From positions 12,789 through 47,598 of the forward strand of contig VBOX01000065.1 of the NCBI GenBank assembly GCA_005893265.1: DNA of 34,810 nt, given 5' to 3'. The translations under genes and the position numbers were made by a program. The notes beneath the pieces are model-generated. The model had not been told where the DNA came from. It searched no databases and saw only the letters and a list, made by a program, of their open reading frames with translations. Below, in pieces: positions 1 through 4,494 of the stretch (its first letter is position 1; the number at the start of each line of letters is the position of its first letter). This stretch comes from Candidatus Eiseniibacteriota bacterium. Its GTDB lineage: Bacteria > Eisenbacteria > RBG-16-71-46 > SZUA-252.

Positions 1-1237
1 GGGAGCCGATGTACGTGCGGCGGTGGCCCCGGATCTCCGCCTCGTCGCGAACGCCCCCCACGCTCATCCGGACGAAATCGCGCCCCATGGCGCGCGCGAT
101 CGAGCTCCCGAGCGACGTCTTCCCTGTGCCGGGGGGTCCCGCGAAGCAGAGGATCGGGCCCTTGAGATCGTTCTTCAGCTTGAGCACGGCGAGGTATTCG
201 AGGATCCGCTCCTTCACCTTGTCCAGGCCGAAATGCTCCGCGTTGAGCCGGCGCGTTACCTCGTCCAAGTCGATCGGCTGGCGCACGGGCTTGTTCCAAG
301 GCAGCGCGAGCAGCCAGTCGATGTAGTTGCGGATCACCCCTGACTCTTGCGAAGTCGGGGTCAGATAGCGAAGCCGGTTCGTCTCCTCGTACACCACCGA
401 GCGCACGTGCTGCGGCAGGCCCAAGATGTCCGCGCGGTCCAGAATCTGCCTGACGAGCATCTCCTGGGGGTCTTCTTCGCCGAGCTGACGGCGGATTTCG
501 TCGAGCTGCTGGCGGAGGAAAAACTCTTTCTGATTCTTGTCGACCTGGGCCGACGCACGGCGCACGACGTCCTCGGCGACACTGAGACGCGCGACCTCGC
601 TTTCGAGGGATTCGGCCACGAAACCCAGGCGCTCCTCGACGTTCAGGGTCTCGATCACTCTCTGTTTTGCCTCAACCGGAAACCGTACGATCGAAGCCAC
701 GGTGTCGGCAAAGAGGCCGGGATCCCCCAGGTTCATGCTGAAGATGTTGTCCATCTCAGGGGGATAGGAGTGGTCGAGCTGGGAGATCGTCTTGAGGTGC
801 TGCAAGATCCGGGTCGCGAGGAGCTTCGCCCGCTCCGGATCCACCTCGTTCTCGAGCGGGCAGGATACGCGTGCCTCGATATAAGGATCTCTCCGGAGAA
901 TCTCCTCGACCCCGATGCGCCGCAGTCCTTCGAGGGTGACCTGGACATTGCCGTTCGGCATGTTCAGGATCCGGATCACCCGGGCCGCGAGGCCTATCTT
1001 GCTTAGCTGCTCAGGGTTGAGATCTTTTTCGCTCTTGGCGGGGCTGTAGACGAGCGCGATCAGCTCGTCGGGCTCCGCGTGATCGCGGAGGAGCGCCTTC
1101 GACTGCTCGAGGCGAATCTGGATCGAGGTAACGCCAAGCGGGAAGACGACGGTGCTCATCAGCGGGAGCACCGGCATGACCGGGGGCACGTCGCATTCGA
1201 GCATCCGGCCGATCTCGGACATCGGTCGCTTGCTCAT
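1..1237 (-). CDS. lon: Lon ATP-dependent protease, N-terminal part (cut by window edge)
   Basis: ATP-dependent cytoplasmic serine protease that degrades misfolded and regulatory proteins. Read on the minus strand from ATG at 1237, about 412 codons are present. The N-terminal substrate-binding domain starts with the typical pattern PVLPLMSTVVFPLGV, followed by a long helical region. The AAA+ Walker A motif GPPGTGKTS is at residues 367-375 (Lys373), matching the spacing in known Lon proteins. The rest of the AAA+ module and the Ser-Lys protease domain lie beyond the window. The start is supported by an AAAGGA ribosome binding site about 10 bases upstream. It lies downstream of, and is separated by a hairpin terminator from, the small-peptide unit on the same strand. 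Confidence 0.95.
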   Translation of the reverse strand, partial: MSKRPMSEIGRMLECDVPPVMPVLPLMSTVVFPLGVTSIQIRLEQSKALLRDHAEPDELIALVYSPAKSEKDLNPEQLSKIGLAARVIRILNMPNGNVQVTLEGLRRIGVEEILRRDPYIEARVSCPLENEVDPERAKLLATRILQHLKTISQLDHSYPPEMDNIFSMNLGDPGLFADTVASIVRFPVEAKQRVIETLNVEERLGFVAESLESEVARLSVAEDVVRRASAQVDKNQKEFFLRQQLDEIRRQLGEEDPQEMLVRQILDRADILGLPQHVRSVVYEETNRLRYLTPTSQESGVIRNYIDWLLALPWNKPVRQPIDLDEVTRRLNAEHFGLDKVKERILEYLAVLKLKNDLKGPILCFAGPPGTGKTSLGSSIARAMGRDFVRMSVGGVRDEAEIRGHRRTYIGS

Positions 1238-1355: not shown

Positions 1356-1395
1356 TCGAAGGGCCATCAGGGGAAGCCAACTGATGGCCCATCGA
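1356..1395 (-). terminator. Hairpin terminator after the small-peptide unit
   Basis: Arms 1356-1370 and 1381-1395 are 15-base inverted repeats with one mismatch (core GGGCCATCAG / CTGATGGCCC) around a 10-base loop. On the minus strand the hairpin is followed by TTTT and then a G-run. This fits a weak intrinsic terminator that separates the two-peptide transcript from lon. Confidence 0.6.
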
Positions 1396-1454: not shown

Positions 1455-1532
1455 TTACCAGCCGGCCTTGCCGTCCGGAGGAATAATCGTGCCGAAGGCG
1501 ACGATTAGCGCGGTCAGAATGAGTGCGGTCAT
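1455..1532 (-). CDS. Small hydrophobic peptide B, 25 aa, C-terminus PDGKAGW
   Basis: Unrecognised 25-residue peptide. It begins MTALILTALIVAFGTII, an uninterrupted hydrophobic segment long enough to span or insert in a membrane, and ends PPDGKAGW. It has a near-perfect Shine-Dalgarno sequence (AGGGAGGTG at 1541-1549) 8 bases before the ATG. The last seven residues are identical to those of peptide A, 71 bases upstream on the same strand, although the hydrophobic halves differ. That pattern suggests selection on the C-terminal heptapeptide. Possible roles: precursor of a secreted signalling peptide, single-pass membrane subunit, or type I toxin-like peptide. No function can be assigned. It is far below usual gene-calling length limits. 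Confidence 0.72.
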   Translation of the reverse strand: MTALILTALIVAFGTIIPPDGKAGW

Positions 1533-1603
1533 TTGGTTCTCACCTCCCTTCAGGTTGTTTCGTTTGAACCGGTGTATCGGGGGTTTCTTGGTACCGTTGC
1601 CGC

Positions 1604-1678
1604 TTACCAGCCAGCCTTGCCGTCAGGACCGGGGCCAGCGAACGACAGGATCACGAGAATCGCGAGAAGAGCTGCCAT
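1604..1678 (-). CDS. Small hydrophobic peptide A, 24 aa, C-terminus PDGKAGW
   Basis: Unrecognised 24-residue peptide, paralogous to peptide B. It begins MAALLAILVILSFAG (hydrophobic, no charge before residue 19) and ends PGPDGKAGW. A Shine-Dalgarno sequence TGAGGTG at 1683-1689 precedes the ATG by 4 bases. Both copies have a Pro-rich hinge, one Asp, one Lys, a terminal Trp and a TAA stop followed by GCGGC. Peptide A is the first gene of the unit, about 53 bases after the predicted sigma-54-type start site. It lies 228 bases downstream of the histidine kinase gene on the same strand, but a hairpin and its own candidate promoter suggest separate transcription. Confidence 0.72.
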   Translation of the reverse strand: MAALLAILVILSFAGPGPDGKAGW

Positions 1679-1741
1679 CACACACCTCACTTCGTTTGGG
1701 TTCACTGCTCACCTTCCGAACTGCTGACGTCGGAACGTAAG

Positions 1742-1757
1742 AGCAGCCGCCGTGCCA
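1742..1757 (-). promoter_or_regulatory. Candidate sigma-54 (-24/-12) promoter of the small-peptide unit
   Basis: On the minus strand the site reads TGGCACGGCGGCTGCT. The sigma-54 consensus is TGGCACG-N4-TTGCW. Every consensus base matches except the first T of the -12 element (C here), and the GG and GC dinucleotides have the exact canonical spacing. The start site would be near 1731, about 53 bases before the ATG of peptide A. I see no convincing sigma-70 promoter in this gap. Whether the genome has rpoN is unknown. Confidence 0.5.
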
Positions 1758-1906: not shown

Positions 1907-3826
1907 TCAGCCGATTATATGTGTCGTGTTAACTTTACGGCGAATGTCTGAAACGGTTGTCTCTTCCTGATAGCCCTCAGGGCTGGGGAAGGGGAGCCGA
2001 ACCAGAAAAATGCTCCCCTCACCGACGCGGCTCTCCACTTGGATCATCCCCCCGTGTGCCTCCACGATGCCGCGGGCGATCGAGAGGCCGAGGCCGAGCC
2101 CGGAGGAATTGAACTCGGCCGTCCCCGAGGAGTGGAGGTTCACGTCCTTGAGCTCCACGAGCTTCGAGAAGATCCGCTCCTGGTCCTCTTCGGCGATGCC
2201 GATCCCCGTGTCGCTCACCTCGACCTCTACGGCGTCCCCGACCCTCTGCGCCGCAAGCCCGATCGAGCCCCCGTCCGGCGTAAAGCGCACGGCGTTCATG
2301 GCGATGTTCAGGATCGCCTTGCTCAGGTAGTCGCGATCAATGCGGGGATGGACGAGGCTCGGCTCCACGCTGATCGAGAGCTGCTGATCTCGCTGCGTTA
2401 CAAAGGGGGCGACTTGCACCGCCACTTCCTCGAGGACCTCGCCGATGTCGCAGGGAGCGAAATGCGCCGGGAGCTGGTTGCGCTCGATCAAGGACATGTT
2501 GGTCAGGTCCCGCGCCAGGCGGGTGAGCGTATCCGTTCCGCGGCGTATCGCGGAGAGCCCCTCCCTCTGGGGTGGGGTGACTTCCCCGAGCGCCCCTTCG
2601 CCGATCATGTCCGCGTACGCGCGGATCATCGTGACGGGGGTGATGATCTCGTGCGAAGCGACGGCGATGAAGTCTGATTTCATCCGGTCGATCTCCCCGA
2701 GCCGCTCGATCTCGTGCCGCTGGGTATCGCGCATGATCTCGAAATCCTCGGCGAGCCTCCCCATCTCATCGCGTGAGCGGACGTTCAGCGGGAAGTCGTA
2801 GTTGCCGACCCGCATCTCATTGGCGGCTTCCACGAGGCGCCGGATCGGCCGCGTGATTCCGGCCGCGACCCCGAGACCGAGCAAGAGCGCCAAGAGCGCG
2901 GCCGTGGCCCCCGCGACGGAGAGATCCACTCCGATCCTCTTTAGGATTAGCGTTTCCTGGTCGAGGGAGCGCAGAAGCACGTACCCGAGGTGACCTCCCA
3001 CTTCCGGACCCCTCACGTCGCCGCGAAGCGCGAGAAAGCGCTCTCCCTGGACCGGGAGCACCTCGAGCCTCTGTCCCAGTCGCTCGCCGGCGGCCTGGAG
3101 GCGAGAGTCCGCCTCCCGCCACTCGCGAATCTTCGTTTGCAGCGTGCTCCGGAGCGCGGACTCGGGAAGGGTGCTCAAAGCGATTTCGCCGTCCACGGCA
3201 AAAACGACATCGCTCCGTGTCGTCTCCTTGAGAGCCTGCGCGAGCTCGGAGTCCACGCTCCTTCCCAGCGTCAGGGTGCCGACGAGGGTGCCGCCGACCA
3301 GGATGGGAACAACCGCGACCCGGTGGGCCTTCCGTCCCTCCACCATGTAGCCGCTGGCCGGACGACTCGCCAGCGCTTCCCGGATGAGCTTCGACCCGGA
3401 GATGTTGATCCCGTGCTCGTCGGGCCGTCCCCCGCGGACGAGAACCACCCCGTGCTCGTCCGTAACGTCAAAGACCTGCGCCTCCGTATCGCGCTGGAAA
3501 TCGCCGACGACGCCAGCGAGCGTCGCCTGGAAATACTCGGTACCGCGATCCACCCCGGGGAGTGTGAGCATCGCGAAGAACTTCGGATCACGTGCGACGA
3601 TGATCCCGATGCGCTTCAGCTCCTCCCCCTGATGCAGCATCTGCCTCTCGAAGGAGAGGGCCGCGCGCGCGAGGTCGGCGGTGACCGTCCTGTTCTCCTG
3701 GGCGGCGACCCGGAAATTCACGGCGAGGAGCGCGGCCACCAGGACCGCCAGAATGGGGATCGAAGTGATCGTCGCGATCTTCGCCGCGAGCGAGAGGCGG
3801 AATCTCGGAAGCCGAAACGGCTTCAC
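1907..3826 (-). CDS. Membrane sensor histidine kinase (orphan)
   Basis: 639-residue inner-membrane two-component sensor kinase. Domains in order: transmembrane segment at about 16-38; extracytoplasmic Cache-like sensor region at about 40-295; second transmembrane segment at about 300-323; HAMP linker at about 324-376; HisKA with the H-box SHEIITP (phospho-acceptor His392); HATPase with N-box (Asn507/Asn511), DTGIGI at 539-544 and GLGLGLS at 576-582. No response regulator gene is adjacent. The GTG start overlaps the cupredoxin stop codon by four bases (GTGA). A longer upstream reading frame exists but would run inside the cupredoxin gene. Context suggests it senses an envelope or redox signal linked to the porin and cupredoxin. 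Confidence 0.88.
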   Translation of the reverse strand: MKPFRLPRFRLSLAAKIATITSIPILAVLVAALLAVNFRVAAQENRTVTADLARAALSFERQMLHQGEELKRIGIIVARDPKFFAMLTLPGVDRGTEYFQATLAGVVGDFQRDTEAQVFDVTDEHGVVLVRGGRPDEHGINISGSKLIREALASRPASGYMVEGRKAHRVAVVPILVGGTLVGTLTLGRSVDSELAQALKETTRSDVVFAVDGEIALSTLPESALRSTLQTKIREWREADSRLQAAGERLGQRLEVLPVQGERFLALRGDVRGPEVGGHLGYVLLRSLDQETLILKRIGVDLSVAGATAALLALLLGLGVAAGITRPIRRLVEAANEMRVGNYDFPLNVRSRDEMGRLAEDFEIMRDTQRHEIERLGEIDRMKSDFIAVASHEIITPVTMIRAYADMIGEGALGEVTPPQREGLSAIRRGTDTLTRLARDLTNMSLIERNQLPAHFAPCDIGEVLEEVAVQVAPFVTQRDQQLSISVEPSLVHPRIDRDYLSKAILNIAMNAVRFTPDGGSIGLAAQRVGDAVEVEVSDTGIGIAEEDQERIFSKLVELKDVNLHSSGTAEFNSSGLGLGLSIARGIVEAHGGMIQVESRVGEGSIFLVRLPFPSPEGYQEETTVSDIRRKVNTTHIIG

Positions 3827-4494
3827 GGTTCGAGAGGCGGGAGCGAGGCGGCGCCCTTTGCGGGCACGTCGACCGTGACCATGCGTTCGCCCGAGCTGGG
3901 CAGCCACACCTTCACCGTGTGGGAACCGGCGGGCACGTTCTCGATGCGGAACCGGCCGCTCCGCCCGATCAAGGCGAAACGCCGGGTCGGCGCCACGATG
4001 ATGTCGGCGCGCATGTCGGAGTGGATGTCGCAGTAGACCTGGACAGCTCCCGGCTTCGCGAACGTCACGCTCCGGGACTTCCCTTTCGGGTAGCGTCCCA
4101 GGTCGAATCGCTTTGGGGGCGAGTAGGAGAAAATGTTGTGAAAGACATTGTCGCTGTTGTGGAACTCGACGGTTTGCCCCGCCTGAACGACAAGAATGCG
4201 CGGGACGAACCGCTGGCCGAGCTGGTCCATCCTGGCGGGCGGAGGCGGAGGTCCCGTTTCGGGTTCGGGATCGGCGACCCACGCCGCACCGTAGGCGGTG
4301 TCGACCGTAGCCGCGGCCACCGACCGGGCGGAAGCACTGAGCTGGCCGACGTATGGATTGGGCTTCGACATATCCCGGATGGCGAGATCCGCGGGCGCGA
4401 CCACGACCTCTCCTGTGATCGCGCCGGCCGAAGCGCCGGCCGCGCGGAGGAGCGCGAGGAGAAACACCGAAGCGATCGCGGGCGCTCCGCGCAT
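3823..4494 (-). CDS. Secreted cupredoxin-like (plastocyanin-type) protein
   Basis: 223-residue exported protein. The signal peptide covers about residues 1-24 (hydrophobic core, ending ASAGA). A cupredoxin fold at about 95-168 carries the type 1 copper ligand set: His119 in VFHN and CDIHSDM with Cys155, His158 and Met161. This resembles the methylamine-utilisation/plastocyanin-like family. A C-terminal segment (about 172-212, FRIENVPAGSHTVKVWLP) resembles a carboxypeptidase-regulatory or transthyretin-like beta domain. It probably carries electrons or binds copper in the periplasm. The ATG overlaps the stop codon of the upstream barrel gene (TGATG) and the stop overlaps the kinase start, so the three genes are one coupled operon. 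Confidence 0.82.
   Translation of the reverse strand: MRGAPAIASVFLLALLRAAGASAGAITGEVVVAPADLAIRDMSKPNPYVGQLSASARSVAAATVDTAYGAAWVADPEPETGPPPPPARMDQLGQRFVPRILVVQAGQTVEFHNSDNVFHNIFSYSPPKRFDLGRYPKGKSRSVTFAKPGAVQVYCDIHSDMRADIIVAPTRRFALIGRSGRFRIENVPAGSHTVKVWLPSSGERMVTVDVPAKGAASLPPLEP

Follow-up and report, generated by a model that had tools for sequence, protein, structure and literature searches.

Why do two adjacent and very short ORFs end in the same peptide, and is that peptide their functional part? The question is raised by a locus in a 34,810-nt stretch of DNA from a Candidatus Eisenbacteria genome (hereafter, the window), whose neighbourhood we take to be that of dnaA/dnaN/recF/gyrAB/yidC/mnmEG, based on gene names read from the translations. 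The initial annotation suggested that the tail PDGKAGW was the functional part of a secreted signalling peptide, the docking tail of a small membrane protein or the end of a duplicated type I toxin-like peptide. We examined these readings in 47 genomes of the phylum; below, genomes, loci and families are designated G, L and f, respectively.

The micro-ORF pair and its flanking genes

The two minus-strand frames, each with a Shine-Dalgarno sequence and both ending in PDGKAGW, were exactly as originally described. Micro-ORF 1 (1604..1678, minus strand) encodes MAALLAILVILSFAGPGPDGKAGW-stop, preceded by the Shine-Dalgarno sequence GAGGTG (1683..1688, minus strand; spacing 4), and micro-ORF 2 (1455..1532, minus strand) encodes MTALILTALIVAFGTIIPPDGKAGW-stop, preceded by GGAGGTGA (1540..1547, minus strand; spacing 7). 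A pattern scan placed the GKAGW-stop tags of micro-ORFs 1 and 2 at 1604..1621 and 1455..1472 (minus strand), respectively. The sigma-54 promoter TGGCACGGCGGCTGCT (1742..1757, minus strand; -24 GG, -12 GC) scored 14.5 of 15.5. Further, a terminator-like hairpin, GGGCCATCAG-N10-CTGATGGCCC (1361..1390, minus strand), was read by eye and was absent from the list of the consensus terminator scan. It corresponds to a hairpin located 3' of the pair in G007, with a compensatory change (GGGCCACC/GGTGGCCC). The consensus sigma-70 scan of the window yielded one sigma-70-like site, outside the pair, and an Rfam search of the window yielded no match.

The gene adjacent upstream encodes a histidine kinase (dCache_3-HAMP-HisKA-HATPase_c; 1907..3826, minus strand), and the N-terminal part of lon protease (LON_substr_bdg, AAA; 1..1222, minus strand) is adjacent downstream. 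The orthologous pairs of the family were flanked by the same two syntenic genes. Upstream of the kinase, a cupredoxin-like secreted protein is encoded at 3823-4494 (minus strand), with a gene for an exported protein of 390 aa in front of it; among the loci seen, synteny of these two was found in G001 only.

In a pattern scan of the 2.48-Mb genome of the window, PDGKAGW-stop was detected at two sites only, namely the pair itself; beyond this genome, it was found in the orthologous pair of one congener. Micro-ORF 1 differed from its G003 ortholog by three synonymous codons and one nonsynonymous codon.

A conserved G[KR]AGW tail on two carriers

The heptapeptide PDGKAGW, first proposed as the conserved unit, proved longer than the conserved core, which is G[KR]AGW-stop. 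GKAGW-stop gave 46 matches in the 47 Candidatus Eisenbacteria genomes, compared with two for the reversed-pattern control. Forty-five of the matches fell into two unrelated carrier classes, 26 hydrophobic micro-ORFs of 16-28 aa and 19 larger proteins of ~200 aa, and L079 was the sole match outside them. GRAGW-stop was found at the end of both kinds of carrier in f3, f4, f7, f10 and part of f8. The tail is therefore not limited to micro-ORFs, and even the genome of the window has two further copies on lipoproteins (L054 and L058). In 338 genomes outside the phylum, GKAGW-type matches were scattered, with no sign of the tag, and none of the six that were inspected (L115-L120) lay in a plausible gene.

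The tag was encoded in 23 distinct ways among 41 micro-ORFs, and synonymous variation was present within the tail of f1 orthologous pairs. The pN/pS of the micro-ORFs was 0.21 (f1), 0.20 (f7) and 0.45 (f8), and the stop codon following the tag was not conserved (TAA, TAG or TGA). Since synonymous sites vary and the carriers diverge, selection acts on the tail peptide and not on its DNA or RNA. In related genomes many copies adjoin strong ribosome-binding sites, and sister genomes keep the micro-ORF frames intact. Thus, the many copies, the diverging carriers and the intact frames support the proposal that conservation, and probably function, lies in the tail.

The second residue of the tail was K throughout f1 and R throughout f3, f4, f7 and f10, and K or R agreed within the genome in 16 of the 17 genomes in which both carriers were found. 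The exception was G038, whose micro-ORF has K where its lipoprotein has R. G023, the sole genome with GKGGW, has this variant at the end of its micro-ORF and of each of the two lipoproteins whose tails could be read; further variants on lipoproteins were GRSGW (L127), TRAGW (L131) and YRAGW (L125). The agreement within genomes could reflect mere shared ancestry, which explains part of the concerted variation; nonetheless, G023 changed at three loci. That a motif so short arose by chance or as a sequence artefact is scarcely credible; this reading is refuted by the 46 matches against two in the control, and synteny, pN/pS and the concerted variants also argue against it. We found no mention of GKAGW in the literature searched, and to our knowledge a tag common to stand-alone micropeptides and lipoproteins has not been described.

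The micropeptides

The 41 micro-ORFs (families f1, f3, f4, f7, f8 and f10) encode 16-26 aa, as called, on a common plan, in which Met is followed by a hydrophobic or amphipathic stretch of 11-20 residues and G[KR]AGW. The first copy of L072 was shortened by the automatic choice of start and is read by eye as MEALLLIAFVISMFGDGGGKAGW. Micro-ORFs of f1 occur as tandem pairs beside lon, and those of f8 as one copy of 16-18 aa. In G014, three tandem GRAGW micro-ORFs (L092:6246-6544, oriented) precede the gene for an ECF-type sigma factor, and a fourth copy lies elsewhere (L091). Searches of Pfam, NCBIfam and PHROGs with the micropeptides gave no significant match. Their charges give no prediction of membrane topology, and the tails of micropeptides and lipoproteins may therefore not share a compartment.

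In f8, the micro-ORF was upstream of a MASE9-HD-GYP gene in 14 of 14 loci scored and sits inside a structured RNA. Two arms of this RNA, GAGACCGRCATC and GATGYCGGTCTC, are ~200 nt apart and form a long-range helix. All 12 of 12 pairs are formed in L103 via GGCGAC/GTCGCC and in L084 via GACATC/GATGTC, which are compensatory changes. In most loci, a CCCACC-type segment further upstream could pair with the Shine-Dalgarno sequence. This RNA (L103:4822-5182, L084, L107 and others) has repeated AGCGAAGCGGA boxes. A search of seven f8 loci against Rfam found no family over the threshold, tmRNA included, and a tmRNA reading of the locus was rejected, since the frame has a start codon with a Shine-Dalgarno sequence of 9-10 nt.

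The ZU5-like lipoproteins

The larger tagged proteins, one to three per genome, are ~200 aa in length, and nearly all have a lipobox. Their C-terminal domain of ~124 aa ends in HFSxY, which is followed by a variable linker of 1-11 residues and then by G[KR]AGW; all 25 members aligned had the same H, F and S. The predicted structure of the domain (pLDDT 93.7) had as its top PDB matches in Foldseek ankyrin ZU5 (4d8o), CD97 (9mqr), BAI3 (4dlo) and NLRP1 (7crw), with query-normalised TM of 0.55-0.64 for the top matches of the model (ankyrin ZU5, GAIN). The domain is predicted from this model to have the ZU5/GAIN fold, a beta-sandwich. Pfam ZU5 (PF00791) matched 5 of 25 members at E<=0.1 (best, 0.0043) without reaching the curated cut-off (the single printed score was 14.5 bits, the cut-off 21). 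NCBIfam assigned the lipoproteins to no family, and a PDB sequence-profile search found one weak match only.

Two tagged proteins of G040 (L053:3140-3616 and L085:5365-5925, oriented) have no HFS and end in LGRY/LGGY...LPPGKAGW; one of them also has no lipobox. Conversely, the tail-less relatives L098 and L134 retain HFS. The motif therefore belongs to the domain and not to the tag, and any self-cleavage would not be tied to the tag. In L128 (964-1908), the lipoprotein runs 24 residues beyond GRAGW; the tag is thus internal, suggesting that it may not need a free carboxylate. Tag-less ZU5-like genes were also found ~0.6 kb downstream of a GRAGW micro-ORF in f7 and f10 (L091:5372-5746 and L098:5804-6085, oriented).

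Genes for MASE9-like proteins neighbour tagged lipoproteins in f1 (L057, L060, L061, L063-L065), f8 (L067) and f4 (L095). At L061:1164-1923, the gene for a MASE9-like multi-TM protein comes after the stop codon of the lipoprotein, at a distance of no more than 8 nt, an order that recalls a split GAIN-plus-7TM arrangement.

Micro-ORFs persist in G030, G032 and G034, in which no ZU5 lipoprotein was detected. The lipoprotein was therefore rejected as an obligate partner of the micropeptide; neither carrier is the obligate partner of the other, and each looks like a client, in its own right, of a third component.

Sigma-54 promoters upstream of tagged genes

Each of the seven f1 loci for which upstream DNA was available had the sequence TGGCACGNCNNCTGCT, which lay 136-149 nt upstream of the tag. 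For the lipoprotein genes, sigma-54 sites were counted 20-160 nt upstream, and other genes in the same loci, scored alike, served as controls. Of the 24 genes for tagged lipoproteins, 58% had a site scoring at least 13, as did 71% of the 14 micro-ORF loci outside f8, compared with 2% of 304 control genes; none of the 304 reached 14 or more, as the promoter of the window does. Mann-Whitney comparison of the scores with those of the controls gave 3e-8 (lipoprotein genes) and 1e-8 (micro-ORF loci outside f8), p-values that are optimistic because related genomes are not independent. The f1 block represents few events, but several families are represented among the lipoprotein genes. RpoN was found in 45 of 47 genomes of the phylum. 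No sigma-54 site was detected in the 14 f8 micro-ORF loci, and sigma-54 control of f8 micro-ORFs was therefore rejected.

Candidate partners of the tag

Micro-ORF loci neighbour the histidine kinase gene and lon in f1, MASE9-HD-GYP genes in f8 and genes for sigma-54 activators in f3, f7 and f10. The adjacent kinase is a possible partner of the tag. Its G006 ortholog (L074:2752-4503, oriented) has lost HisKA and kept dCache_3 and HATPase_c, and both micro-ORFs persist there, making the kinase a weak receptor candidate and unlikely to be an obligate receptor. Exosortase (PF09721) was absent from G000, G001, G002, G003 and G006, all of which bear the tag; sortase (PF04203) was detected in 8 of 47 genomes, none of them in f1. 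Both being absent from the genus of the window, they were rejected as readers of the tag there. No receptor, exporter or processing protease for the tag was identified.

Discussion

Several known systems resemble the tag in part. Streptococcal ComS and SHP precursors are short, with a hydrophobic N-terminal part and a functional C-terminus, and the micropeptides (16-28 aa, hydrophobic) resemble them in outline. It is possible, but unlikely, that G[KR]AGW is the pheromone segment of such a secreted or processed signalling peptide, which the lipoproteins would also release or display. Sensor genes near many loci (the dCache histidine kinase of f1 and MASE9-HD-GYP of f8) and the sigma-54 activators near f3, f7 and f10 loci are consistent with this, and self-cleavage at HFS would release a peptide of ~10 residues ending in the tag. 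However, no Rgg-type regulator was found among the neighbours of tag loci, the kinase is degenerate in G006, and the tail is invariant across the phylum, nearly without the between-species diversity of most specificity-bearing pheromones; a second, lipoprotein class of carrier and sigma-54 control are also unlike ComS/SHP. PEP-CTERM is a C-terminal homology signal on exported proteins that is linked to sigma-54 in Proteobacteria, with PrsK/PrsR (Haft 2006, PMC1569441). Like PEP-CTERM, the tag is a short, lineage-patchy C-terminal signal on exported proteins with sigma-54 -24/-12 sites upstream. The tag with its sigma-54 promoters works most like that system, yet fails two of its defining features: on the lipoproteins it is a bare pentapeptide that lacks both the TM helix and the basic cluster, and it occurs in genomes without detectable exosortase. 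Further, unlike PEP-CTERM, it also ends stand-alone micropeptides. It differs likewise from LPXTG/sortase systems, as f1 has no sortase and the tails do not follow the LPXTG-TM-basic plan. That the tail sends its carriers to a particular place or is processed by an enzyme of its own, as with exosortase, is accordingly improbable, despite its C-terminal position, its exported carriers and its promoters; most tag-bearing genomes have no sortase, and each genome has only one to three large clients.

A device acting in translation, in which the tail would stall the ribosome at the stop codon as an arrest or leader peptide, is very unlikely. The tail always directly precedes the stop in micro-ORFs, and those of f8 lie inside a conserved RNA with pairing that sequesters the Shine-Dalgarno sequence, but the identity of the stop codon varies, the same tail occurs on unrelated lipoproteins in other operon contexts, and it is internal in L128. 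Slimmer still are the chances of duplicated type I toxin-like hydrophobic peptides. Small size, hydrophobicity, strong Shine-Dalgarno sequences and tandem copies, such as the G014 triplet, recall type I toxins and small membrane proteins of the Ibs, Ldr and Fst class. In contrast to these, the micropeptides have a conserved hydrophilic tag, fixed while the carrier sequence is free to vary, and sigma-54 promoters, and no antisense RNA was detected (Rfam was empty in the window). This reading also leaves the tagged lipoproteins unexplained. Among the first readings, the docking tail fits best, but it foresaw neither the same tail on ~200-aa ZU5-domain lipoproteins nor the sigma-54 promoters.

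The reading that we prefer, at a probability of slightly under one half (about 0.48), is that G[KR]AGW-COOH serves as a sigma-54-controlled C-terminal recognition tag, specific to Candidatus Eisenbacteria, that is read by a shared envelope partner. The micropeptides would bear it on no more than a helix, and the lipoproteins on the ZU5/GAIN-like domain with its terminal HFS motif. On the simplest reading, both carriers are clients of one further component, which recognises G[KR]AGW in the envelope, at the free C-terminus or close to it. This would be a single partner in the membrane or periplasm, such as a PDZ-type protease or a sensor, that binds both free C-termini. When an enhancer-binding protein turns on sigma-54 transcription, the micropeptides would flood or occupy this partner from the membrane, and the lipoproteins would offer the same ligand from their anchors. 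The tag would thereby act like a docking signal that both carriers share in an envelope-response circuit.

Self-cleavage may add a further step. PIDD cleaves itself at HF/S, and CARD8 and NLRP1 at SF/S, at the end of the domain (PMC3210808); GAIN domains use H-X-S/T (PMC13062082). The lipoprotein domain resembles ZU5/FIIND (PIDD, NLRP1, CARD8) and adhesion-GPCR GAIN domains in its predicted fold and in H-F-S at the domain end, and it differs from them in having only ~124 aa and a short tagged tail in place of UPA or 7TM. By analogy, bacterial HFS domains may cleave themselves as PIDD, NLRP1 and adhesion-GPCR GAIN do, and HF|S cleavage, as an optional step, would then leave SxY..G[KR]AGW as a C-terminal strand that could detach. 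The GAIN/ZU5-like lipoprotein, often with an adjacent MASE9 multi-TM gene, recalls the tethered-agonist logic of GAIN-plus-7TM in adhesion GPCRs. A hitherto unknown bacterial signalling system on these lines, with the pentapeptide as a C-terminal ligand carried both by free sigma-54-induced membrane micropeptides and by the self-cleavable last strand of the lipoproteins, is improbable.

These results describe a conserved family of micropeptides and a C-terminal tag, both of them new, in a phylum represented here by metagenome-assembled genomes alone. A functional signal can be common to exported proteins and to very short ORFs, which gene callers easily miss. The sigma-54 regulon and the second class of clients make the function of the tag testable, and if the HFS motif cleaves, the lipoproteins would provide a minimal bacterial model of GAIN/ZU5 self-cleavage with a detachable peptide.
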